Below are positions 4,607-63,253 of a DNA stretch of 64,000 nucleotides, in pieces; position 1 is the first letter of the stretch, and each line of letters opens with the position of its first letter. The notes under the pieces are model-generated. The model was not told the DNA's origin, did no database searches, and saw only the letters and a list, made by a program, of their open reading frames with translations. The DNA is from Sphagnum magellanicum (Eukaryota; Streptophyta; Sphagnopsida; Sphagnales; Sphagnaceae): NCBI GenBank assembly GCA_021904315.1, contig CM038924.1:17194051-17258050 (forward strand), read 5' to 3'. A program made the translations under genes and the position numbers.

Positions 4607-7600
4607 TTAATCTTTCTTATGGATTCTCAATTGAAGCCCTTTCTGAAAGGTAGGAAATGGATCCATTGTCATTTTTTCAAAAGGGTCAATCATTGACCAT
4701 TCATAATTCAACACCAAATGGTGTAGGAATATAACCATTTCAATGCGAGCAAACTCACTTCCAGGGCACATTCGAGGTCCACCTCCAAATGGCAAATAAG
4801 TGAAAGGTTGGGGTCCTGTTCCTTCAAAACGAGATGGATCAAACCTTTTAGGATTTGGGAAAAATTGTGGTGACAAGTGCGAACGTGGACCACTCCAAAC
4901 AACCTGCACAACATCCATGAATGTGGAAGGTTATTGATGCAATTAGTAAAGAAGAAACTCAATCCAACATTATGTTAATTCTTATTTAACATTTGGATTA
5001 ATGATAATTCAATTCAAAACATCATAATATAAAAGTTCATAAAAAATCTTTAGTGTGAAAAATCTTCCAATTGTGGTGTTAGGTTTGAAATGTGATTTGA
5101 TATTTGGCTAGGTCAAAAATCAATTTAATTAGTCAATTGGTATTTCTAAACTCGTCGACATGTGTTAGTTGGATGTGTAAATCATTGTTGGGTGGTTACC
5201 TTGTTTGGGGGTTACCACTAAAGGTTCTAGTTTTAATTCATAAAAAGTGAATCAAAATTAAGTTTGATTTTTCAAATTGATTTTAAAGTCAATTTTTTTA
5301 AAAACATTAAATTGAAAAACCAAACCAAAACCAAAATTGGAACCCATATCTTTGAAAAAAAAAATTGAAAAAAAATTAAATCAAGCACTAATTAGAAGTT
5401 AACTATTATTTCCAGTCCGAGTTCCTTACAATTTGATGTAGTTTTCAAAACAAGAACCCAAACTAGAACTAATTTTCTTTGGTTTGAAAAATCAAAGCCA
5501 AAACTAGAACCAGAATCACAATTTTTGTTTTAAAGAACCGAAACCAAAACTATTCTAATTTATTTTTAAAAATTGAAACCAGAAGACTTTCATAAAAGTC
5601 AAGAATTAGCCAACACTTATATTAACTTCAAGTAATTGTCTTATGGATTGGTAGTAGATTTACACAAGTATGCTTATGATAATATGAAAATTTTGTACTT
5701 TTATGAACTTGTTAACTAAATTAAGCTTAACCTATTTTGTGGTCCATCATTTCAAGAAACATAACATATAAAAATGTTTTCTACAACTCTTACCTTCCAA
5801 CCTTTTGGAATGGTAAATCCTCCATATTCAATCTCTTTAAGCGTTTCTCGTGGTGCAAATGCCAATATAGGTTGTATGCGCATAGTCTCTTGGATCACTT
5901 GCCACGTGTATTTCATTTTTTGTGTATCATCCCAACATAGCAAGTCTCCAACCTTTTCCATTGCAATTTTCTTTTGCTCTATCACATGCACAAATGTAAA
6001 TCTTCAATTTCAATTAAATCGAATTAGTTGGCAAAGAGAAAAGGATAAATTTGTGTTAAAATGGCGTAGAATGCCAATATATATAAAATGTGATTCCATC
6101 CAAATATTTCATTTTCTCAAGACCTTTTCACCAAATTTATGAACTAAACATCTAATCTAGGGAACATACCTTTAATAACCTCTTGTAAACAATGCGGATT
6201 TAAAAATAGATATTTGAGTACGACTCCAAGTGTGCTAGATGTTGTGTCATGGCCTGCAAATAAAAGGGTCAAAATGTTGTCTTTGATTTCGTCGTTGCTG
6301 ATTAGGTGGCCTTGATCATCAAGGGTGCTAATTAGAATTGACAAAAGATCCTGGCGAGGTGAGATCTTCCCTTTTTCCATATCCTGCCATTGAAAACAAT
6401 AATAAAAGTATGTACTTAAATGAAACCTATCAAATGTACATTATACATGGGAGGAACCACCATAACATGGCATCCCAACTATACTACCCAATTTGAAATT
6501 AATCAAGGCCAATTGTGAAAGTAATCAAAAACTTTGGAAATAAGTTTAAATTGATGGAAGACCACAAAAAAATTTGCAATATGGAATCACTTGCCTTTCG
6601 CTTCTGACGTATAGTTATTTCCAGTGTATGAAGCATTTTTTCACGTGCCAACCTAGCTTTGTGGTACGTAGTTCCAAGAAAATCCAATGGTAATGCAAAA
6701 AACCCTGCCATGTATGTATTCATATCATGTGCTAATGCATGAGATTCAGGGCCTTCTTTGATGCTCATGAATAAATCAATTGTCAAAGATAAAGTAATTT
6801 TTTTCAATAACGTCCGAGCTGTAATTTCATCTTTCTTTTCCCAGAATTGCTCAAAATGGGCTCTTATTGTTTCATGCATTATAGGCACAAAGCTTTGCAA
6901 GCCAATAGGGCCGAAGAAAGACGAGAGAATTTGGCGAGCCTTCCTAAACATTCAAAACCACAATTTATTAATCATGCCCATTCTCAATTATCATAGTCCA
7001 TTGTACTTCCATGATTAACACAACACAAAAATCACTTTAAACAAAAATGAATGCATGTCCAAGATCTATATGGTTGAAGGCTTTGTAAATGGATATATTG
7101 ATGGCAAGGTAGGTACTTGTGTTCTTCTCCTCTTTTCATGGAAATGCTGCCGTGCCCAGAAAGTTTTTGCATAGATGATGGCCATGAGACTTGCACTAGC
7201 TTGTTTTCATTTGAAAACAAAAACTTGTTGCCTTCAGGTGGACCTAGAAACACTTGTGGAGAAAATAAAATATGTGTCTTGAACACCTAAACCAATTTGA
7301 AACTTTAATCATATAATCACCTTGTCAATATGTAGATGAATTCCAATTTAAAATTAATATGCAATTCACTTGCATATGTTTAACATTGTATACACTAAAG
7401 AAAGATGTATGCAATACACATTTAATGATGAAACGAACATCTTTGGTAAATTTATATTCAATCATGTCACAAATAGAAATAGTGTTCAAGGATTACGTTT
7501 GATCTCTATCTTCACATCCTCAAAGTACCTTTGCATTTTCAAGTATTAAAATGATTTGTAGCTTGTCAAAATAAGAGTCCATAACATAGACATGTATTGC

Positions 7601-8221
7601 CAAGAAAACAATCCAATTCAAAATTCAAACTCCAAAGAACATGCACATTCCATATGAATGTTAGACATGTGACTTTAAGGATAAAGAAGCACCTTGAAAT
7701 AACCTAAGATGCATTTCCATGCAAAAGATTTAATTAACACATCATGCAATGCAAGTTTGATATTATTGTAAATATAGGTTCCATAAAGTTTGAAATGTAA
7801 AGTAGCATCATGATTGGGTTAAACACACCATCAATGTTTAACTATACTTCATAGAAAGCACTTTTGCAAAGATGTATAGGATAAATAGATGACAAACCTG
7901 TCCATATTTGGCGATACGAGGGTTCATAAAGTCCTCCATAAATTTATTAGCTTTATAAGCACGAAGAAACTCCAAAGTCTCTCCTAAAAAAGGGAGCCCA
8001 AGACTACCAGGAGGTAGAGTTGTTTTGGCACTGTCCTTCAAGTTTCTTTGCCAAGAGTACAACCTATACAAAGTAACGACTCCTATTACAATTCCAACAA
8101 CCAAGCCCACATCACGGACATCACGGAATGCTGAAGAAAGACACAAAAAGTCAGTGATTTTGCAATCATAATATGCTCGATGACCCATTTCTAACTTGTG
8201 CTTGCACCCTTTCCCGATCAT
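4607..8221 (-). CDS. Cytochrome P450, CYP85 clan (CYP716/CYP725-like), six exons
   Basis: Membrane-anchored haem-thiolate monooxygenase, probably acting at the ER on a triterpenoid, diterpenoid or sterol-like substrate. Exons on the minus strand: 8221-7898, 7286-7117, 6943-6595, 6383-6170, 5978-5794, 4903-4607. They join in frame to 512 aa with no stop. A hydrophobic anchor lies at residues 38-57 and the proline hinge PPGSLGLP at 70-77. The I-helix oxygen motif AGHDTT is at 324-329, ExxR (ETMR) at 383-386, FDPSRF at 435-440, and the haem loop FGGGPRMCPG at 453-462 with Cys460 as ligand. Length and all key residues are normal for the family, so the gene looks functional. Introns are 611, 173, 211, 191 and 890 bp; intron 3 has a GC donor. 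The start is uncertain: ATG at 8221, ATG at 8188 (501 aa), or an upstream exon spliced at 8130. Similarity to CYP716/CYP725 is judged from memory; the substrate is unknown. Confidence 0.92.
6384..6594 (-). other. GC-AG intron (intron 3 of the P450)
   Basis: Exon 3 ends CGAAAG and the next bases are GCAAGT, the best-known context for a GC donor. The intron ends ATGGCAG before GATATGG. Using this donor joins RQKRK directly to DMEKGK in phase 0, matching the family. The only GT nearby, two bases further on inside GCAAGTGA, would shift the frame. The other four introns of the gene are GT-AG. Confidence 0.85.
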
Positions 8222-8526
8222 TGGACTAGAAACTTATTTGCAACACGGTAGTAAACCTACAATATCCATATATAGACCATCCAAACTATGAACAGGAGTT
8301 GTTCGAATTCAGGTGTGTGCAATCAAGGAAATTTGTACAATGAAACCATGCCAAATTCATCGATAGGAGAATGTTGTACATGCACACTTGAACAAAAGAT
8401 GTGACAAAGAGTCAAGACTGTGTCTTGTAAATGACATCCCTCAACTATGGAAGGGGGTGCCTCATGAGGTGCTTCATATATGTGAAAGAGATTTGTAGCT
8501 CCTGTCAACAAAGACACAATTTCCAA
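8222..8526. other. Upstream region of the P450
   Basis: About 300 bp between the P450 start and the first direct repeat. It should hold the leader and core promoter if ATG 8221 or 8188 is used. No clear TATA box or second exon was identified. A 67-codon minus-strand frame at 8323-8526 shows no P450 features and is not called. Confidence 0.4.
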
Positions 8527-11059: not shown

Positions 11060-12660
11060 TTTCTATCTTTTCTTGGCAAAACTTTTATCTCGTGGCAAAA
11101 CTTATATCTCTTTTTGACTAAAGTTTTTATTTCTTGGCAAAAGTTATATCTTTTCCTGGCTAAACTTTTCACTTGGCAAAACTTATATTTTTTCTTGGCT
11201 AAAAAATGTTCTCTCTTGGCAAAACTTATATCTAATTTTTGACTGAACTTCTAATTTTTGGCAAAACGTGTATCTCTTCTTGACTAAACTTTTCTTTTGG
11301 CAAAACCTATATTTATCTTTGGTTAATCATTTCTCTTTTGGAAAAACCTATATTTATCTTTGGCTAATCTTTTTTCTATTGGCAAAACCTATATCTATTC
11401 TTGGCTAAACTTTTAATTCTTGGCAAAACTTAATATTTTCTTGGTTAAATTTTTTTTCTCTTAGCAAAACCTATATTTCTTCTTGGCAAAACCTATATCT
11501 ATTATTGGCTAAACTAATATTTTTTTCATTAAAATTTTTTTCTTGGCAAAATTTATAGTTTTTCTTGGCTAATTTTTTTTCTCTTGGCAAAACCTATATC
11601 TATTCTTGGTTAAACTTCTAATTCTTAGCAAAACCTATATTTCTTATTGGCTAAACTTTTTTTTTTGTGGAATTTTTTTTCTCTTTTGGCAAAACCTATA
11701 TTTTTTTGGCTAAAATTTTCTAACTCTTGGCAAAACCTATATTTCTTATTGGCTAAACTTTTCTTTCTTGGAAAAAATTATATTTATTCTTGAATTTCTT
11801 TTTGGCAAAACCTATATTCTTATTGGCTAAACTTTTCTCTCTTGGAAAAACTTATATTTATTCTTGAAATTTTTTTTCTTGGCAAAACCTATATTTCTTT
11901 TTGGTTCAGCTTTTTTAATTCTTGGCAAATTTTATATTTTTCATTAGCTAAATTTTTCTCTCTTAGCAAAGTTTATATTTCTTCTTGGCAAAACCTATAT
12001 TTCTTATTAGTTAAAATTTTCTCTCTTGGGAAAACTTATATTTCTTCTTGGAAATGTATTTCTCCACAAAACCTATATTTCTCATTGGGAAAACTTTTCT
12101 CTTTTGGCAAAGTTTATATTTCTTTGGGCAAAATATTTCTCTCTTGGCAAAACCTATATTTTTTTTTGGTTAAACTTTTCTCTCTTGGCAAAACTTATAT
12201 CTATTATTGACTAAACTTTTAACTCTTGGCAAAACTTATATCTGTTTTTGGCTAATTTTTTTTTCTTTTGGCAAAACCTATATCCATTCTTGGTTAAATT
12301 TGTAATTCTTGGTGAAACCAATATCTCTTCTTGGCTAAACTTTTTTTTCTAGACAAAACATGTATCTCTTTTTGGTTAAACTTTTAAGTCTTAACAAAAC
12401 TTATATCTATTTTGCCAAAAGTTAAAAGTTTAGCCAAAAGTGCACCCTTGTTAAACTCCGACCTCCCAACAATTCTTTCATGTCTTTTTTGGTCAAAATC
12501 ATACCTTTCAACAAAACTTTTATTTATTTATAGCAAAATCCCTACCATTTATTATAATCTTCATGTATTAGATAAACCTTTACTTCTCAACAAAACCTTT
12601 TTATATTTTGGCTAAACCTATATTTATTGGCAAAACCTCTTTATTTTTTAGTTAAACCTC
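11060..12660. repeat. Degenerate tandem array of TTGGCAAAAC / TTGGCTAAAC motifs
   Basis: Dozens of copies of two alternating words, CTTGGCAAAACYTATATYT and TTCTTGGCTAAACTTTT, with a basic spacing of roughly 20 bp and a composite unit near 35-45 bp. The array is regular from about 11060 to 12400 and fades into looser copies to about 12660; the word TTTTGCCAAAAG near 12415 is in inverted orientation. Copies vary in poly-T length and by point changes. A 122-codon frame at 11842-12210 is only the array read through, giving YISLGK-type repeats. The array starts about 20 bp after direct repeat copy 2. Confidence 0.9.
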
Positions 12661-19823: not shown

Positions 19824-22800
19824 TTATGCCTGCAGCAGCAAACAGTGTTCTGCCTGGCCATTCAGGACTCCTGCATTCATCTCCATTGGGTGAAGATTTG
19901 AGGCTATGGTGGACATGGACATTGCTTTGTTCGGGCCCTCGAACACTGCTGTAAGACAATGTTTCTTCACTTCATTAAAACGCTCTTGGGTTAGAGAGAC
20001 TTCTGCCAGAAGTCTCCAGGCTGACTCCTCTGTTGCTGTGTCATAGTCACACCTGCGCTTGAGTACAATATGACCACTGATCTCCCACACTGCAGGGTTG
20101 ACTTGAGTGTCCAGAATTTCTTGATCCACTTCTCCCCGTGCTTGCTTTTCTCCAAAACACTGTATCGAATTTTGTCCACAAAAGTGAGTAATCATAGATC
20201 AGATAAATCACAGTAATGAGAAAGAAACAGTTAGATAATGACAGAATCTGAAAGAGTTCAGTAAATTGTGTTTACTGTCTTGCAAAAAGCTATAGTTGTT
20301 TCATTCCTTCAGAATTTCAAAAACCAGTGATGTGTTGGAATTGGCCCAACCTGAGGGAATATGAAAACACGGCCACCTCGGTCAGCAATGAGAACATTGA
20401 AAGGGATATTGGTGTTCTGAAGATATATGCAAGCATTAGCTACTGCGTTTGCTAGATCTTCAAGATTGTCCCCGACTTCAAAGACAAGTCCTCGAACTGG
20501 GAAATTTCCAAGCTCAAGTATTTTGATGCCACCCTTCTTGCAATGATGACAAATTGGTGTTGTTGGTGCCCGCTCTACTGGAAACGGGGCTGTCAAATAG
20601 TAGGCCTGCAAGTTTTACCAAGTCATCAGGCCATGCTCATAAACATGGAAGCCATATAAGAACTCATAAATAGGTATACACAACCCTTGTTATCAACCCA
20701 CTAATAGACATAAATATTTTGATCTAGTCTTCAGGAGTCCCAAGATGTACACCTAAAAGCACATCTCTCATAACGCCACCAATTGTGCTCAACAAACTGA
20801 GACCAACAAATACCTCATTTGAGAATCACCAGTGTTTCTGTACCTGGAAATGGAGGTGGTTGATTGTAGCAAAAGCCCCAAGGCTATTGTAGCCCAGCCG
20901 GAAATAGGGGTTGTCAGCTTCTGCCGCCATATGAAGGGCCAATAAGAAGGTGTCAGGGTCAATCCGCTGGGGGGTGCAATTGAGCACTCGAGGAACTAAC
21001 AGTACATGTCCATATTCAATCGGGCTGACCTGCAAACCAAATCATTCCCGTCAGTTGCTAAAGGGCAACACCTGTGATGAATGATGGCACGCTCATCTAT
21101 ATGTCCCAAAATAGCTATTTTCCATTGAGAAACTAGAATATCTGCACAGTTGCCATTGAGATACTGCACCAGCTTGGGAATGGGAAGCCAAGTCCCTTAT
21201 GCCTTCTGCTCTGCATGACCACCAGGCACCCTATATGGTATGCACCCACTAAAGCAGAACTGACAAAATTGAACAGGCAACAAATTTTGCGGGCCACTGG
21301 TTGGAAAATATTTTGAAAGAACATACATTTATGGCAATCACATTAGGACTCTCAGAAACTGGAGCCTTTTCATAGTATTGGTTGGTCCCATCTTCACTCT
21401 CTTCGAAGCAGAAAAGAACTTCCTCTTGGCCAACTTTGGTGAAATTAAACTTTTTGCCATCATATGGTTGCAACACTTGATCTACTCGAAACTCTGTTGG
21501 CCTCTTTTTTGAATGCCTGCCCTCATTCAACTGTGCGATGAACCCATGCTCACCAGGTAGAACCTACACAATTACCACTCATGCAAATTAACATTGAAAC
21601 CATTTAGAGTCAGTCTCTCATCCCTTTGTGGAATAAAACGCCCTCTCCAATTTAAAAGTATCAGGGCCAACCAATTTCAAGGCTTCAGACAGCTATCCTT
21701 ATGGCTGGAACTACCTGCTGCTTCATAAAGATTAAGAGAACCAAATGACACAACTAGATGCCAACAATTTGACATAACATTTCCAAGGTTATGTCAAATA
21801 TTCCAGATGGTGCAGGTGAGTTCTGATTCAATCCAGAATTATCAGTATACATTTCAGGGAGTGTGTAGACATAGATAAGAATAATAAACGTGAGTGAATT
21901 GAGAAAGTCACCATGGTTTCACAGGCAGTCACATCATATCGAAACAGTCCTCTTTCCATTCGGTCCTCCCACTGAAACCAGGACAGAAAAGAAACATATG
22001 AACTTTAGTGACAAAATCGGTGATTCACTCCCCCAAGTCCAAGAGAAAGGCCAAAAAAAATGAGACAGAACTCCAAGTGACATGCAACAACCACAGAGTG
22101 GATAAGCAAAAATAATAAAGCACATGAGGTGTAAAATAATCTAGCGAAACCCCTTACCAGTGCAAAACCTTGGACTATGTAACCTGTTTCAGTATTTTCT
22201 GATAAACACTCTTTCCTAAACTGTTGCTCTCCAATCCAAGGGACAATTTAATGGTGACGTATGATACTGTGCATAGGATTAGGTGCAGGCAGAAAACTGA
22301 ACTGTGTGTAAAATTTAAGAGGGTGATGTAAAAGCTATTGCAAGCAATATTCTAGACATGTTTGAAACAGCTGAATGCTAATATCACTGTGAACTTCACC
22401 AACAAAGAAGAAATATGGTGCTTCTCAGGCATACCTGTGCAAGTAGGAGAGAATCCAAGAACCCATTGGCAGCCTCTGAGTTTTCCACAAGTCCCTGACT
22501 CAATTCATGAAGTTCATAATTATGGGGGGCAGTATCACCATTGGCAACTTTGTGGCTGTCACCATTTGAATAAGCATTGTTCTTTACATTCGCAATCTGT
22601 CGCCTCCTAAATGTGTACAATGGCAGTTTTGCTCCTGCAACAGCAGGAATTGCTGATCCTCTGTTAGGACAGGTACTCATCACAGTAAGATTTGAATAGT
22701 CAGATTTCCTTAGTAAGAGAGACAGCCTCTTCCAAAAAATTGTTTCCAAATTTTTGTGCACAGTTCAGAGGGCTTCTTGACATACCTACTTATCTCCCTA

Positions 22801-23158
22801 GTATGCCACAAACCAGATACACCTTCTACAGTTTTAGGGACACATCCTAACACATCAAGAAATCTCCAGCAGAGATTGTTGAGAAGCAAAGCAAGAAAAA
22901 AAACTATGCTCCAAAAAATGCAAAAAAGGATTTGCTCTTGCAACTTTCTCTATACTTTCAACCAAAAGAGTATTACAGAAGTGTGAAGAGAAAATGATGA
23001 GGAAGAAAATTAGTATAAGAAAACATGATAGATTTAGTGAAGAACGTGTACTGACCAGGCATGCAGCAGCTGCCAAGGCAATCTCGGCCACAGCCAGTCG
23101 CTTGCTCCAGCTCCTGGTTGAAGGAAACCAGAGTTGCCACTCGCTTGATAGTCAGCAT
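19824..23158 (-). CDS. VTC2: GDP-L-galactose phosphorylase (ascorbate synthesis), seven exons
   Basis: Catalyses phosphorolysis of GDP-L-galactose to L-galactose-1-phosphate and GDP, the committed, rate-controlling step of the Smirnoff-Wheeler ascorbate pathway. Exons on the minus strand: 23158-23056, 22634-22435, 21971-21912, 21563-21327, 21029-20844, 20605-20351, 20159-19824. They join in frame to 458 aa; Arabidopsis VTC2 is about 442. All six introns are GT-AG. The start is ATG 23158 (MLTIKRV, as in the family); upstream in-frame codons lack ATG. Visible landmarks: Cys-rich segment CGRDCLGSCC (residues 23-32), ACETM (117-121), NEGRHSKKRPTEFRVDQVLQ in exon 4, and the HIT-type site HLHFQ (258-262), with His258, His260 and Gln262 at the end of exon 5. 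DTQVNPAVWEISGH lies in the last exon. The C-terminal tail diverges from flowering plants. The gene is intact; translation is probably controlled by the leader uORF. Confidence 0.96.
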
Positions 23159-23228
23159 GATTTTTTGTTTCTCTTGCTGCGGTTGATCAGTAGTCCCCCG
23201 CTCCTTCTCCTCTTTCTCTTCTCCAAAG

Positions 23229-23507
23229 TCAAAAGATTCCACAAACGCCGCCCTCCTCGAGGAGATGCTGGAAGTCTGTGGACTTATTGTTATTACTTTG
23301 GAGATGCGAGAAAGGGGAGGAAGCTCTCCCTACGCCTCCGCCTGCAAGAGCAGAGAGGTCGGATGGACGGCCGCCCTCGGACGGCAGGGCGCCGCGACCA
23401 CCGTGCAAACTGTGGGAGCTGATCAAGCAGGAGTGGGAGCAGCTGTCGCCAGCGACCTGCGCGTTGGAGTCACTCATACGTAATCGCTGCCTGCGCTGCC
23501 ACGCCGT
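23229..23507 (-). promoter_or_regulatory. Upstream ORF in the VTC2/GGP leader (ACG or ATG start)
   Basis: A minus-strand frame stays open from just after a TGA at 23516-23514 to a TGA at 23231-23229, ending 70 nt before the VTC2 ATG. It has an in-frame ACG at 23507-23505 with A at -3 and G at +4 (strong context), and ten codons later an ATG at 23477 in weak context (C at -3, A at +4). Peptide lengths are 92 or 82 codons. The central HGGRGALPSEGGRPSDL followed by ALAGGG resembles, from memory, the conserved uORF peptide of plant GGP genes. That uORF is known to initiate at ACG and to stall ribosomes when ascorbate is high, lowering GGP synthesis. The position, ACG and peptide agree; the regulatory role here is inferred. 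Confidence 0.82.
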
Positions 23508-24120
23508 GATGCTTCAACTTGCCTACACTAGCGAATGCTATGTGTTTTGCCAGGGCGGCTGATCACCTCCAAACTCCTCTCTCTGCCGCTCTCGCTCCTC
23601 TACAAGTGAAGAAGCCACCGACACCCGCCTGCCTCTCTAGAGCAAAAAGAGAAGAAGAAGCGTGCAAGCAAATGTTCTTCAAACAAACCAGCCACCCCCA
23701 AAAAAAAAACCGCTACTCTTCCAGAAGAGCAACAGCAACCCCCAAAACAAAACAAAATAAAACAAACAAAAAGCTCGAATTCCAACGAGAGAGAGCAAAA
23801 CGGTTTCCAACAAACTACAAATTCAAACCAAAAGCACAACCCTAGGGAGAACGCAATTCAAATGTTCTCGTCAGGACACAAGAGAATGGCAAAGACACAA
23901 AGAGAATCGAGAGACAGACGGAGACAAAGAGGCACAAAGAGAGACGAGGGAGAGAAAGAGAGCCGAGAGGATACGAGCGAGACAGTCTCGAGAACGCGAG
24001 AGAGAGAGCGAGAGACAGCGCGAGAGAGACTGAGAGAGCGAGAGGGGCGTGCGCGTACACAACTGGTTAAGTTCAGAGAGACCGAATTAAAAGCAGCCAG
24101 GAATAGAAAAAGGGAATGAT
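23508..24120 (-). promoter_or_regulatory. 5' leader/promoter region of VTC2 with long CT-rich tract
   Basis: On the gene's sense (minus) strand, about 23870-24060 is strongly pyrimidine-rich with repeated CTCTCTCT and TCTCTGTCTC words (GAGA on the plus strand). CT-rich tracts of this kind are common near plant transcription starts and in leaders. The transcription start cannot be fixed. Open frames through this tract on both strands are low-complexity artefacts. GC content rises sharply between about 23050 and 23640, typical of a gene's 5' end in this window. Confidence 0.5.
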
Positions 24121-25174
24121 CCAGAACAACAACTACTCCTCTGCACCCCCTGCCTCCCCCCCCCTTCTCTTTTATTCATTTGTGTGGCTCCGCTTACTAG
24201 AGGCTCTGTCCAAAAATGATGCTTCTTTATCATACCGTAGTACCTATTTTATGATGCCGTAGTACCTTGGCCAGTCAGTTGAACACAAAGCAAAACAATT
24301 ATTTCATTTTGAGGATTTTATTTCAACAAAATAATATATTCTCAAATATTCCATCAATATTCTTTCTTTTCCTTCAGGGAAAAAAAATTTCTTGGAAATT
24401 TATTTATTTATTTTTGAAAATTTCAACATTTCTGAAAATAATATAATTAGAGTCGTATTGGCCCCAAGGTACTACCGTATCCAACACAGAATTGGCAATG
24501 TAATTGTTTTGCATAGTACTTTGATAGCTTGGCACATTAGTTAAATTACTTGCAAAAATGTTGAAAATTTTAACTTTGTTCCCCCACCCTCCCAAAAAAA
24601 ACAAAAAAACAATTATGTGAACGAAAATAGAGATTATTTGGAAAAACTCTAGAACATGCCGCTTGTTGAACTGGAATTGTGAAAATTAATTATTTATTCA
24701 ACAAACATATGTCAAACTTGTGGTCAAAATTAAATATTATGATATATATTGTCTTCTTGAACTTAAACTAAATGGTTGGAATTCTGTTGATTTTGAATAT
24801 GAATTTGATATTTAATATGAGATTTCTCTTTTGCTAGCATGCCCAAAGCATCACCAATCCATCCTTTGAGTTTTTAAAAAATTAGGTCAAAAATAAATTG
24901 AGGAAAAAGATAGAACTAAGTAGAGAAAAAACAATTTTTAAGAAATGTGATCATTTAAACTCTAAACATATAATGGGTCAATTTGAGATAGCACTGTTCA
25001 AGAGTTGGAACAATTCAACTAATACTAGCCCCTCCCTGTCCCTATACCCGCTCAAAGGCAGTTCCCATTCCTCCGTGGGACAGAGCCCATCAAAACAAAT
25101 GGAAGTACTGGCTCCACATATACCCACTCATTCATTGCTAGTTATACGGGACAGGGATGGCACCTTGCATGGCG

Positions 25175-27130: not shown

Positions 27131-27364
27131 ATGTGTTTTGCCCAAACAAAATGCCCTCCAGCCTTGCCCTTCCCTACACTGAATTTTTTTAATACCCAGA
27201 ACTCCATGTTCTTTGAACAAAAAGAATTCAAAAGAATCAAAACTGGCATGTGTTTACCCAAACAAACAAAATGCCCTCGAGCCTTGCCCTTCCCTACACT
27301 GAATTTTTTAATACCCAGAACTCCATGTTCTTTGAACAAAACAAATTCAAAAGAATCAAAACTG
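27131..27364. repeat. 117-bp tandem duplication
   Basis: Two adjacent copies (27131-27247 and 27248-27364) share GCCTTGCCCTTCCCTACACT, AATACCCAGAACTCCATGTT and AAAAGAATCAAAACTGG. They differ by a few substitutions and small indels, so the duplication is fairly young. Open frames across it are repeats of the same words, not a supported gene. Confidence 0.9.
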
Positions 27365-28819
27365 GAGGGTTTGGTTGGGTAGGTGTGGGGAGAAGCAAGG
27401 ACCATGTGAATTGATGTCAAAGGAAATTTGAGATTCGAGTTGAGTATATGTATATGGGGGATGATGGCATATTAATGATCGGATTAAGTTTAGGTGTAAA
27501 ATGGATTTGCAAATTTTTTTTTTTATGTGGGATGGTGGCACTTCACAAGTTGTATGCAATAACTTAAGGTTTAGTTGCAGGTCAATTTTGGTATGTTGAT
27601 GTCAGTCATCAACCTCTCTCCCTTGGTGAAGAGATGTTCTACCAAAACCAGAATGTAAGAAATAGTAAAAGAAACTTTTATAAATCACACCACAAATTAA
27701 TTACAATGTTATAATGAGCATGTGACCATATGATAGCCATTTATGTAAAGCTCTTGCGCAGTAGTTTTTTTTAACACTAGGAGGAGTAGGCTGTACAAAG
27801 TGAAATTTTGCTCTGGTCTAGTGGGAGGGAGTTTTGGTTTTTCATTTTGAGTTAAGCTCTTTCATTGGGGGTTACAATTTTGCATGGGGGATTACCTTCC
27901 TTTGTCAAGGCTTCATCGAAGATTTTGTGAGCCGTCATCGAGCGAGCTTTACATCATACATTCCCCAGCCCTCCGTGTGTTACCCTACACATGAAGTGCC
28001 AACAGAAAATTTCTCATGTATTTGGAGGGTGCCTTAAGAGCAAAATTTCTCCCTAGCATGTGCGAGATGTTTTGAAAAGCAAAATGCTTGTTGGAGTTGC
28101 CACTCCTCAAGTGTTACCCTGCACATGTTGTGATAGAATGAGGACATAAACAATGAACTTACTCAGTAAGGTTATGAAATTCAAGATGAAATTTTCACAT
28201 TGACTATTATTGCTGCATTTTCTTAGTTGCCATGGAAATAATGAATTTTCTCAAAAATATGCATTTGCATGAAGGGAAGAAAATATATATATACATTCAA
28301 ATGGAATGCAAAATCCTTTGGTCACATATGACTATGAACTACAACATTATATAACCAACCACAAGTCAATTCACTCATGGCCAATTTCTGAGTCACTATG
28401 TGTCTTGTGAAACACACAATGGACATGCATTACCAACCCCAAGCTGTAGCTTTAATATGATAGTTTGTTGGACCAAGATCCATTGTTGCGGCCAAAGTTC
28501 AATCCAAACTAGTTGAGTTCATTTCTATTTTTTAAAGATTTAAAATCCATATTGCTCTCCTAACTAGTACGAACTTGTACAATGTCCTTTCCCACAACCA
28601 TACTTATCTTCACAGGTCCACTTCTGAGTGATCAATGTTTCATTTGGTGTTGGGATTTGGACTTTCAAACGTACTCATTTCCTTTACTCTTCATACATGC
28701 AAGTGTATTGTCCACATCAACATTTCCCCTCCAATTAGGTAGCATCTATGAAGTCCTCTTTGAAAGGATAGTGGTATCCCTTTCAATAATTTGGCCAACC
28801 AACTTGAAACTTATCGCAA

Positions 28820-34435: not shown

Positions 34436-35947
34436 ATAAAGTAAGGAAAACAACACTAGAACCCTGAGTTTGATCATAAATAGGGTGAGATTCCAAAAAA
34501 TATAAAACGTTAGCATTCAAGGGTGGGGAGACCTCAGTTTTTTTTTGTCGTGAACTGAGTTTCACCCTGTCTTTCCATTTTCTTTAACGCCTCCATTACT
34601 GCTCCTACTTGTAAAGCTACTATAGTTAGTCTTCACCTTTGTGCATTAAATGCTGATTTTCAGCATTTCATTTCCAAATTTAATAATACTTATGGATACC
34701 CCTGAAAGAAGAGTTTGCGGTGAAAGGAGGCCCAAAGAGAGGGTGGCTTTCCAAATAATTTTAATATTTACACTTACACTGGATTTACACACCATATATA
34801 TATATGGCTATTGACACTTACACGCACAACACTGATCTTGACTTTGATTGTGATAGAATCACCCAACAATGACCAAGCCTCAAGGCCGCTGCTCTGCGTA
34901 CAATAGTGGCCACATAATAACTATGTCTAACATAATTTGGTGATCAAATTACGTGTTTCATCAATTAGCATCATGAGTCAGAGGTTGTGTAACAATATGT
35001 TCATTTTATAAATAATATCAGATTTTGCTACTATAACATTTGAACTGTGAACCCTCTCCATGAAATGAAATATACCCTCCCCAGTGTTTATTTTAGGAAT
35101 TCTTTTTTGGAGCCACAGTGACAACCATCCATAGAAAGATGCAGAGAAACTCAAGATCATTCTTCTGAATATTTAGCCAAATCTGGCTATAAACCAAATA
35201 TGAAGTATAAATTTTTAATCATCTTTTGATATATTTTCTACATGATTAAAACCAAATTTAGGAATCTGGAAAAAATTTCATCAATTGTGGCGATTGAAAG
35301 CCTTTAAAATCACTTCATTTTTCAAATTTTAGATTCTTAATTTCGTGTTTTTGGCTAAATTTTTGCCAGTAAAAAAATGTCTGACCCTCCCTATCGGTAA
35401 CTTACACCTCCTCCTTCACTTTGGTCTTTTTTGTGTCAGTCGGTTCCTCCTCCAAGAAATTTCCTTCTAATGAAGGAGAGCCGTGAAAAGGGAATGTTCT
35501 GATTCGAAGTCCAAAGATGCTAGCAATAATAGCTAACCAGAGAATAATAGAGTTATCCATAAAGTAACCGTGTCTTCACCCTATCTTTGGGCCTCATTTC
35601 AGCCCCTATCCGGTCTTTCAGTGGTTCTGCAAAATAAAGACATTTTATTATATATCAGTATGAAATGCTCAAACTCAGCATTTAATGCACGAGGTTCAAG
35701 ATTAATTACAGTAGTTGTACAGTTAGAAGAAGTGAAAATATGTGTAGCAGTGGTGGAGGCGCTCCTGAAAAAGGAAAGACAGGATGAAACTCAGTTTACT
35801 ACCAACATTGATGGTTTTCTGAGTTTCATCCCCCGTTGAATGCTAATGCACTTTTTTGCAGGTTTTTTTTTTAATCTCACCCTCTGTATGACCAAACTCA
35901 GGGTTCTGGTGCTGTGTTTTTTTTTACTTTACGGATAACTCTGATAT
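34436..35947. mobile_element. Foldback structure: two MITE units in inverted orientation
   Basis: The left unit (about 34436-34746) is repeated in reverse complement at about 35550-35947, around an ~800-bp centre. Shared words in order from the left include AGAACCCTGAGTTTG, AGGGTGAGATT, GTTTCACCCTGTCTTTCC, GCGCCTCCA-like, GTGCATTAAATGCTGA, CTGAAAGA and GGCCCAAAGA. The right unit has its own terminal inverted repeats: AGAGTTATCCATAAAGTAA at about 35550 and the reverse of AGAGTTATCCGTAAAGTAA ending near 35947. It therefore looks like a ~400-bp MITE. No transposase is encoded. The centre holds an inverted copy of the repeat seen at 3791-3990. Confidence 0.75.
35170..35371. repeat. Inverted copy of the 3791-3990 dispersed repeat
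   Basis: The palindrome-like TAGCCAAATCTGGCTA at 35174-35189 and the reverse complement of ATGAAGTGATTTT plus GCAAAATTT at about 35300-35371 match the repeat at 3791-3990. The middle is poorly conserved. Confidence 0.45.
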
Positions 35948-62060: not shown

Positions 62061-62930
62061 TCAGTCCTTTATTGACGAGTGGAAGGCATCCCTATCCTGG
62101 AAAAGGATACCAAAATGATCATAACCCTCTCTTGCAGGGCTTTGCAGGTCAATCCCAATAAGCCAGACTTTGTGCACCTGAAGTCCATAAGCAAGGAGTG
62201 TGCGATCAAAGTACATACTCTCAATGTGGGGATCATGACCCTCGATTTCTAAGTCCCCCATGATTGACAGAAACCTTGCCACTTTCCATCTTTTGAACCC
62301 AAATGCATGGGCACATGTTCCAGAGCACCTTTCAGCACCAGTGCCATTTACAAGTGGCATTCTTGTTCCTGCACAACGTGGTCCACAAAGTCCTAAATAG
62401 ACCATTCCATCGCCTGATGCTAAGGACAACCCTGTCTCCAGTATTTCTTTGGCTTGATCAGGTTTCAGGCTAGGGTGTAAAGAAATGTCATCCTCAAAGA
62501 AAAAGCGCCAAGCATTTGGATCAACAGAATGATCATTTGCAAAAGCTTGCATTGCAGCAATGAATGCCATCCGGTTGGAGAAAACCTTCAAGTACTCATC
62601 AGTGTGGTACTTTCGTGAACCCTGAAACTTCTCCAATTCCTGGTCCACTTCGATGCTGTTGTACTTGAGCGGTATGTGCTGAGTAACCCTAATATTCAAA
62701 TGCTTGAGTGTAGATCCTGTATGATCAAAGCGCTCAGTGTTGATGCTTAAAACTATGCCATGAAAAATTGGGCCAACATCTGGAGAATAATAAACCTTGT
62801 GCAAGAAGCCACCCTTCATGTTGAAGCTTGTTGGCGCAACCAACCAAAGCGTCATAGTCGTAAACACTAGTGCTCCTATTAGAAAAAGACAATTTAAAAC
62901 CATCCAAAGCTTGATTGATCTGAAACCCAT
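62061..62930 (-). CDS. GT25-like membrane-anchored glycosyltransferase (putative)
   Basis: An intact single coding exon of 289 aa from ATG 62930 (MGFRSIKLW) to TGA 62061. Residues 10-31 form one hydrophobic signal anchor after a short basic N-terminus, the type II layout of Golgi glycosyltransferases. The lumenal part has HGIVLSINTERFDH (57-70), then NRMAFIAAMQAFA (119-131) and FFFEDDISLHP (143-153). The acidic EDD triad at 146-148 fits a metal/nucleotide-sugar site like that of GT25 enzymes. A Cys cluster (182, 186, 202, 206) and a sequon NGT (195-197) follow, with a conserved-looking CAHAFGFKRWK. I do not recognise a named plant orthologue; donor and acceptor are unknown. An acceptor-like TTTTTCTTAG ends four bases before the ATG, so a leader intron is likely. 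In-frame extension to 62963 uses GTG and is rejected. Confidence 0.75.
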   Translation of the reverse strand: MGFRSIKLWMVLNCLFLIGALVFTTMTLWLVAPTSFNMKGGFLHKVYYSPDVGPIFHGIVLSINTERFDHTGSTLKHLNIRVTQHIPLKYNSIEVDQELEKFQGSRKYHTDEYLKVFSNRMAFIAAMQAFANDHSVDPNAWRFFFEDDISLHPSLKPDQAKEILETGLSLASGDGMVYLGLCGPRCAGTRMPLVNGTGAERCSGTCAHAFGFKRWKVARFLSIMGDLEIEGHDPHIESMYFDRTLLAYGLQVHKVWLIGIDLQSPAREGYDHFGILFQDRDAFHSSIKD

Positions 62931-63253
62931 ATTTCTAAGAAAAATAAATAAATTAAGTGCCACAAGATTAGTAACAGTGCCTTATAATACCATAGTTTGC
63001 TTTCGCCAACCAAAACATCCCACCTGCCACACATTGAAAAATTGGATATAACTGGACTTAGTACTGGAGATTTTGAGAATGCTGTAGTTTTGTTCTAAAC
63101 TGGTCTTGAAATGGGTTTCTTTTGTTGACATGTTTTCTTTTCATTGAAATGGTCTTTTAATATATTTTTTTTCATTGGAGTCTCTTGCATTCTTCCTCAT
63201 GCAGAAAACAATGAATTAAAACTACAGCTTAATCACATGAACATAAATCTCAC

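Follow-up and report, generated by a model that had tools for sequence, protein, structure and literature searches.

In angiosperms, the uORF located in front of GGP/VTC2 genes has been described to start either at AUC, which encodes a conserved first Ile, or at ACG (PMC6878703), with the ACG placed in a good context (PMC6878703, PMC12559526); presumably AUC and ACG stand side by side in angiosperms. The encoded peptide is reported to comprise 60-65 residues (PMC7084844), with 60 residues in rice (PMC12559526), and position 45 of the consensus, counted from the first Ile, is Glu but Ala in grasses (wheat paper PMC6878703). According to two papers (PMC12559526, PMC7084844), one of which refers to Laing 2015 by name, conservation of the uORF extends from mosses to angiosperms. 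According to the introduction of PMC12559526 all reported GGP uORFs are from dicots, yet PMC6878703 had described those of grasses. With respect to function, the review PMC11066809 summarizes that removal or mutation of the uORF raises GGP translation, that a change of the uORF ACG to AUG greatly lowers it, and that direct evidence for a role of ascorbate in stalling is lacking. The reviews (PMC11066809, PMC11066792) regard production of the uORF peptide, and also an effect of ascorbate on it, as open questions. Here we have analyzed a stretch of 64,000 nucleotides from Sphagnum magellanicum (the window; G000:C18:17194051-17258050), in which a uORF with two in-frame starts precedes a GGP/VTC2 gene.

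The GGP gene and the uORF in its leader

The window carries an intact GGP/VTC2 gene of seven exons on the minus strand (23158..19824), with a CDS of 1377 nt that encodes 458 residues, contains a lone stop at its end and is interrupted by six GT-AG introns (Table 1). Bryophyte GGP genes have been described to contain 6-8 exons (PMC7640755). Pfam, NCBIfam and PDB sequences were without a match for the protein, and its identity therefore rests on the motif table for potato and pepper GGP in PMC11222470, from which 20 motifs were scored in the window protein against 200 shuffles each. Eighteen of these outscored the best of their 200 shuffles, with for example 39/50, 37/48 and 40/50 identical residues, and the other two, potato motif 10 (6 residues) and pepper motif 7, did not rise above the shuffles. 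The sequence HLHFQ in exon 5 is presumably part of the HIT motif. KKRP and the HIT motif are both features of GGP according to the wheat paper (PMC6878703). The original prediction, that the frame precedes a GGP/VTC2 gene, is thus supported by 18 of 20 motifs and by an intact CDS located 70 nt downstream.

The uORF lies on the minus strand, which the prediction had left unnamed, in a frame that differs from that of the main ORF and extends from stop to stop over 23513..23229. Its ACG (23507-23505, context AGCATC-ACG-GCG) stands right behind an in-frame TGA, in the order TGA AGC ATC ACG, and the ATG follows ten codons (30 nt) past the ACG at 23477, in the poor context TTACGT-ATG-AGT. Counted from ACG and from ATG, the peptide has 92 and 82 residues, respectively, and the closing TGA (23231-23229) is separated by 70 nt from the main ATG at 23158. 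Reading of the minus strand agreed with the prediction in all of these respects, namely the opening behind a TGA, the A at -3 and G at +4 of the ACG, the distance to the main ATG and the weak second start, and also in the core letters HGGRGALPSEGGRPSDL, which were found in the uORF. We assume that this core resembles the conserved angiosperm GGP uORF peptide, as had been proposed. Pfam was without a match for the uORF peptide, and none of 12 guessed peptide strings was found in the running text of papers.

Dinucleotide shuffling of 24176..23159 (2000 replicates) produced at least 92 consecutive open codons in 82% of cases and, in 3.35%, an ACG in strong context that was followed by at least 90 open codons. 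Since the leader is rich in open frames by chance, the frame alone is weak evidence for a uORF; the evidence becomes strong with the second GGP gene, which has a matching uORF.

Table 1. Location of the uORF, its starts and conserved parts, and the exons of the GGP gene (window coordinates).
Feature	Position	Strand	Basis or remark
uORF, ACG to stop, 92 aa	23229..23507	-	sequence reading; second copy at G000:C12
ATC-ACG start motif (Ile-Thr), ACG with A at -3 and G at +4	23505..23510	-	ATCACGGCGT identical in paralogue
In-frame ATG, weak context (C at -3, A at +4)	23475..23477	-	same place and same C at -3 in paralogue
Conserved core HGGRGALPSEGGRPSDLSALAGGG, residues 36-59 (Ile = 1)	23334..23405	-	residues 34-59 vs paralogue 25/26
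C-terminal tail, residues 60-93, unconserved	23232..23333	-	8/32 aligned residues identical, 9/33 with the stop codon included
uORF stop TGA, 70 nt to main ATG	23229..23231	-	sequence reading
Conserved block abutting ACG upstream, begins with strong-context CTG at 23553	23508..23553	-	39/46 nt identical to paralogue
ATG-free stretch upstream of in-frame ATG	23478..24176	-	sequence reading
GGP exon 1, main ATG in context AAAATC-ATG-C	23056..23158	-	joined CDS
GGP exon 2	22435..22634	-	joined CDS
GGP exon 3	21912..21971	-	joined CDS
GGP exon 4, with KKRP	21327..21563	-	joined CDS
GGP exon 5, with HLHFQ	20844..21029	-	joined CDS
GGP exon 6	20351..20605	-	joined CDS
GGP exon 7, with stop	19824..20159	-	joined CDS

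A second GGP locus and constraint on the uORF

The whole genome (31 contigs, 438,994,042 bases) was searched with the uORF, and a single other match at E 0.001 or better was obtained among three candidates scored, at C12:1683515-1683745, free of stops and 68% identical over residues 2-83 of the query (E 3.9e-19). This match directly adjoins a second GGP gene on its upstream side, and a genome search with GGP gave matches confined to these two loci (14 matches, 10 candidates scored). The C12 leader contains ATC-ACG at 1683742, likewise with A at -3 and G at +4, and an in-frame ATG at 1683712, exactly ten codons past the ACG and with C at -3 as in the window copy. The frame runs for 99 codons from the ACG, and the main ATG is located 46 nt past its stop. 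No relatives were found in the viral_contigs and genome_contigs collections.

Between the two GGP CDSs, 378 of 456 aligned residues are identical and 61 of 170 fourfold sites are different (gaps and intron-split codons omitted), the latter corresponding to about 0.49 substitutions per site (Jukes-Cantor). For paralogues of S. divinum, Ks peaks have been published at 0.406 and 0.643, beside duplications dated 102-122 and 189-247 Ma, and since the fourfold divergence of the GGP pair is near these peaks, the pair may have an age of the same order as those duplications. When 381 window ORFs were compared with the surroundings of the C12 gene (nine pieces, about 90 kb in all), the match at GGP was recovered, and eight further ORFs matched elsewhere in these pieces (best E 7e-16, window 35537-35836), which may represent repeats or shared genes. 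No gene order common to the two loci was seen in this comparison, and none of the 10 scored genome matches of the gene at 62061 was on C12. An origin of the GGP pair by genome duplication was therefore not confirmed by synteny, and its age estimate rests on the fourfold divergence.

The gene at 62061 is an open frame of 306 residues (62061-62981, minus strand) without a Pfam match; its 10 genome matches include itself, the other nine being 37-63% identical. Pieces of a cytochrome P450 gene are located at 4607-8233 on the minus strand, with Pfam PF00067 in 4607-4930 and with CYP90B1 and taxadiene 5-alpha hydroxylase as the nearest solved sequences; the pieces 6499-6951 and 7838-8233 are without a Pfam match and were joined to the P450 by eye. 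Also by eye, degenerate repeats such as SLGKTYIS and WQNLYF were observed in a 138-residue open frame at 11794-12210 (plus strand), and a stretch of about 110 bases with CCCTTCCCTACACTGAATTTTTT was seen twice in tandem at 27138-27367.

Conservation of the uORF was assessed from two sequences of one genome, with residues counted from Ile = 1. Within residues 1-59, 44 of the 56 aligned residues are identical, and within residues 34-59 this rises to 25 of 26; with 8 of 32 in the tail, the conserved part of the uORF thus ends at residue 59. Amino-acid constraint is distributed unevenly over this part. Between ACG and ATG, 6/10 codons are changed in amino acid and none silently (differences by codon position 2, 3, 2), compared to 6/45 changed and 6 silent from ATG to residue 59 (3, 3, 10). 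The difference in amino-acid changes gave a Fisher p of 0.004, uncorrected and with segments picked after inspection of the alignment, and the third-position share past the ATG (10/16 differences) a p of 0.016, likewise uncorrected and for a segment picked after alignment. The lone indel past the ATG is of 9 nt. Selection on the amino-acid sequence is thus visible from the ATG onward and not from the ACG, and because the peptide is unconstrained between the two starts, peptide selection in itself is no proof of ACG use. Moreover, fourfold differences are fewer in the uORF (3/27) than in the main CDS (61/170; p 0.014, uncorrected), suggesting that part of the constraint on the uORF may act on the nucleic acid.

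Compared to the GGP/VTC2 uORF as described, the window uORF has the same position in the 5' leader before a GGP gene, the same conserved Ile codon ATC and an ACG in good context at its start, no overlap with the main ORF and, as in non-grasses, a Glu at consensus position 45. This is the only Glu of the window peptide before position 85, and in the paralogue, which is three residues shorter up to this point, the matching Glu is at 42. Conservation of the peptide between genes, a further property of GGP uORFs, is found within this genome in the 44/56 residues given above. The length differs, with 92 (window) and 99 (paralogue) aa from the ACG vs about 47-65 aa in angiosperms; the window copy lies outside the range of 60-65 aa, which is descriptive, the wheat copies having 47 and 56. 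The end of the conserved part at residue 59 is close to the 60-65 residues of the whole angiosperm peptide, and what the two Sphagnum copies carry in addition is an unconserved tail of 34 residues in the window and 44 in the paralogue. Also in contrast to the described GGP/VTC2 uORF, both copies have an in-frame weak AUG ten codons past the ACG. Here they approach the AUG-started CPuORFs (PMC9305500), where a conserved peptide before the main ORF is likewise combined with an available AUG; unlike in these, the window AUG is in weak context and preceded by a strong-context ACG. The literature text consulted, in a reading of wider aim that covered running text, did not mention an in-frame AUG paired with the ACG of a GGP uORF.

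We regard the window frame as a true GGP uORF with a conserved second start. The prediction went further and saw in it an extension of the mechanism to a non-flowering lineage, a claim that does not stand, since conservation from mosses to angiosperms is already stated in PMC12559526 and PMC7084844; a non-flowering host of the uORF is, according to these papers, not new. The less ordinary part is the retained ACG together with a weak AUG in an AUG-poor leader.

Start codons in an ATG-poor leader

Within the fixed 1000 nt before each main ATG, there is one ATG in the window and one in the paralogue, in each case the in-frame ATG of the uORF. Shuffling in 250-nt blocks (5000 shuffles) gave expectations of 6.6 and 6.3 ATGs, respectively, with at most one ATG in a fraction of 0.0042 of the shuffles for the window and 0.0062 for the paralogue. 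Among 126 one-kilobase tiles of the window (63 per strand, leader region included), none had one ATG or fewer (minimum 3, median 25), although this control is unmatched in composition, the window having 33.6% GC vs 52% in the leader. Such a low number in both copies points to a leader that is transcribed and scanned over about a kilobase, in which the one remaining AUG is tolerated or used.

Both in-frame starts are retained in the paralogue, in line with the two possible initiation points of the original prediction. As ACG is the published start (PMC11066809, PMC6878703), it could be the only working one here, as in angiosperms, leaving the ATG a mere internal methionine codon. The identity of the motif ATCACGGCGT and the C at -3 of the ATG in both copies are consistent with this, but the peptide from ACG to ATG is unconstrained, with 6/10 codons changed and constraint from the ATG onward, and the ATG persists in two leaders otherwise ATG-free over the last kilobase, and we therefore find exclusive use of ACG unlikely. 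The onset of amino-acid constraint at the ATG, and not before, would in turn suit an ATG that is the main start in this lineage, with the ACG minor or leftover. This seems rather improbable to us, since the ACG has been retained in both copies with its A at -3 and G at +4, whereas the context of the ATG is weak in both.

That the conserved block acts mainly as an RNA or splicing element instead of a peptide, for example as an optional leader intron with its end at TTGCAG (23342), would be in agreement with the few silent changes in the uORF, the 39/46 nt conserved upstream of the ACG and a core tract like a strong 3' splice site (one of three of this quality on the window minus strand), but is highly improbable given the third-position bias and the 9-nt indel that the uORF frame shows past the ATG, the ordinary folding (z -0.81) and a GC content of 62% in the block 23567-23342 vs 34-44% in the six GGP introns. 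On the same GC values, a leader intron was thought unlikely. The tract itself, CTCTCTGCTCTTGCAG (23342-23357, minus strand, in the uORF core), resembles a strong 3' splice site, and its letters are the same in the paralogue. No unusual RNA stability was detected in the uORF stretch (z -0.81) or in three sub-stretches (z 0.96, 1.47, -0.81), and a hairpin aiding initiation is thus unsupported; in the consensus fold of the two copies 3/59 pairs are changed on both sides, too few to argue from.

A CTG at 23553 in the strong context GCCGCC-CTG-G (minus strand) opens a frame of 27 codons, 23553..23470, which runs across the ACG start and terminates on top of the uORF ATG (TATGAGTGA); in the paralogue, a CTG stands at the corresponding position 1683788, and the end is shared. 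We do not claim it as a coding frame, as no third-position excess was found upstream of the ACG (differences by codon position 4, 2, 1).

A proposed two-start model for the Sphagnum GGP uORF

We consider it probable that the uORF is a moss form of the GGP/VTC2 regulatory uORF that is read from two starts. Ribosomes scanning the AUG-poor leader would reach the strong-context ACG and, 30 nt further on in the same frame, the weak-context AUG, and both starts would feed one conserved peptide segment. Ribosomes leaking past both would reach the GGP AUG, 70 nt beyond the uORF stop. Reinitiation is expected to be poor behind a uORF of 92 codons, and GGP output would hence depend on leakage past both starts. 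The weak AUG would function as a backstop, giving more baseline entry into the uORF with GGP still accessible. By analogy with angiosperms, the nascent peptide would stall ribosomes at high ascorbate and thereby reduce GGP synthesis; use of either start, stalling and ascorbate control are here proposed.

More tentatively, AUG and ACG may contribute equally to synthesis of the regulated peptide. Ascorbate could then not act via the choice of the non-canonical ACG and would have to act on the ribosome during reading of the core, and the paired weak AUG would represent an evolved setting of the basal leakage in a leader purged of AUGs.

Since this natural leader has ACG and AUG in the same frame, the choice of start codon can be told apart from stalling that depends on the peptide: should feedback persist with the AUG as the sole start, an action of ascorbate via the ACG would be excluded. 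In addition, comparison of the paralogues points to residues 12-59 as the part of the peptide worth mutating, and suggests that its tail is dispensable.
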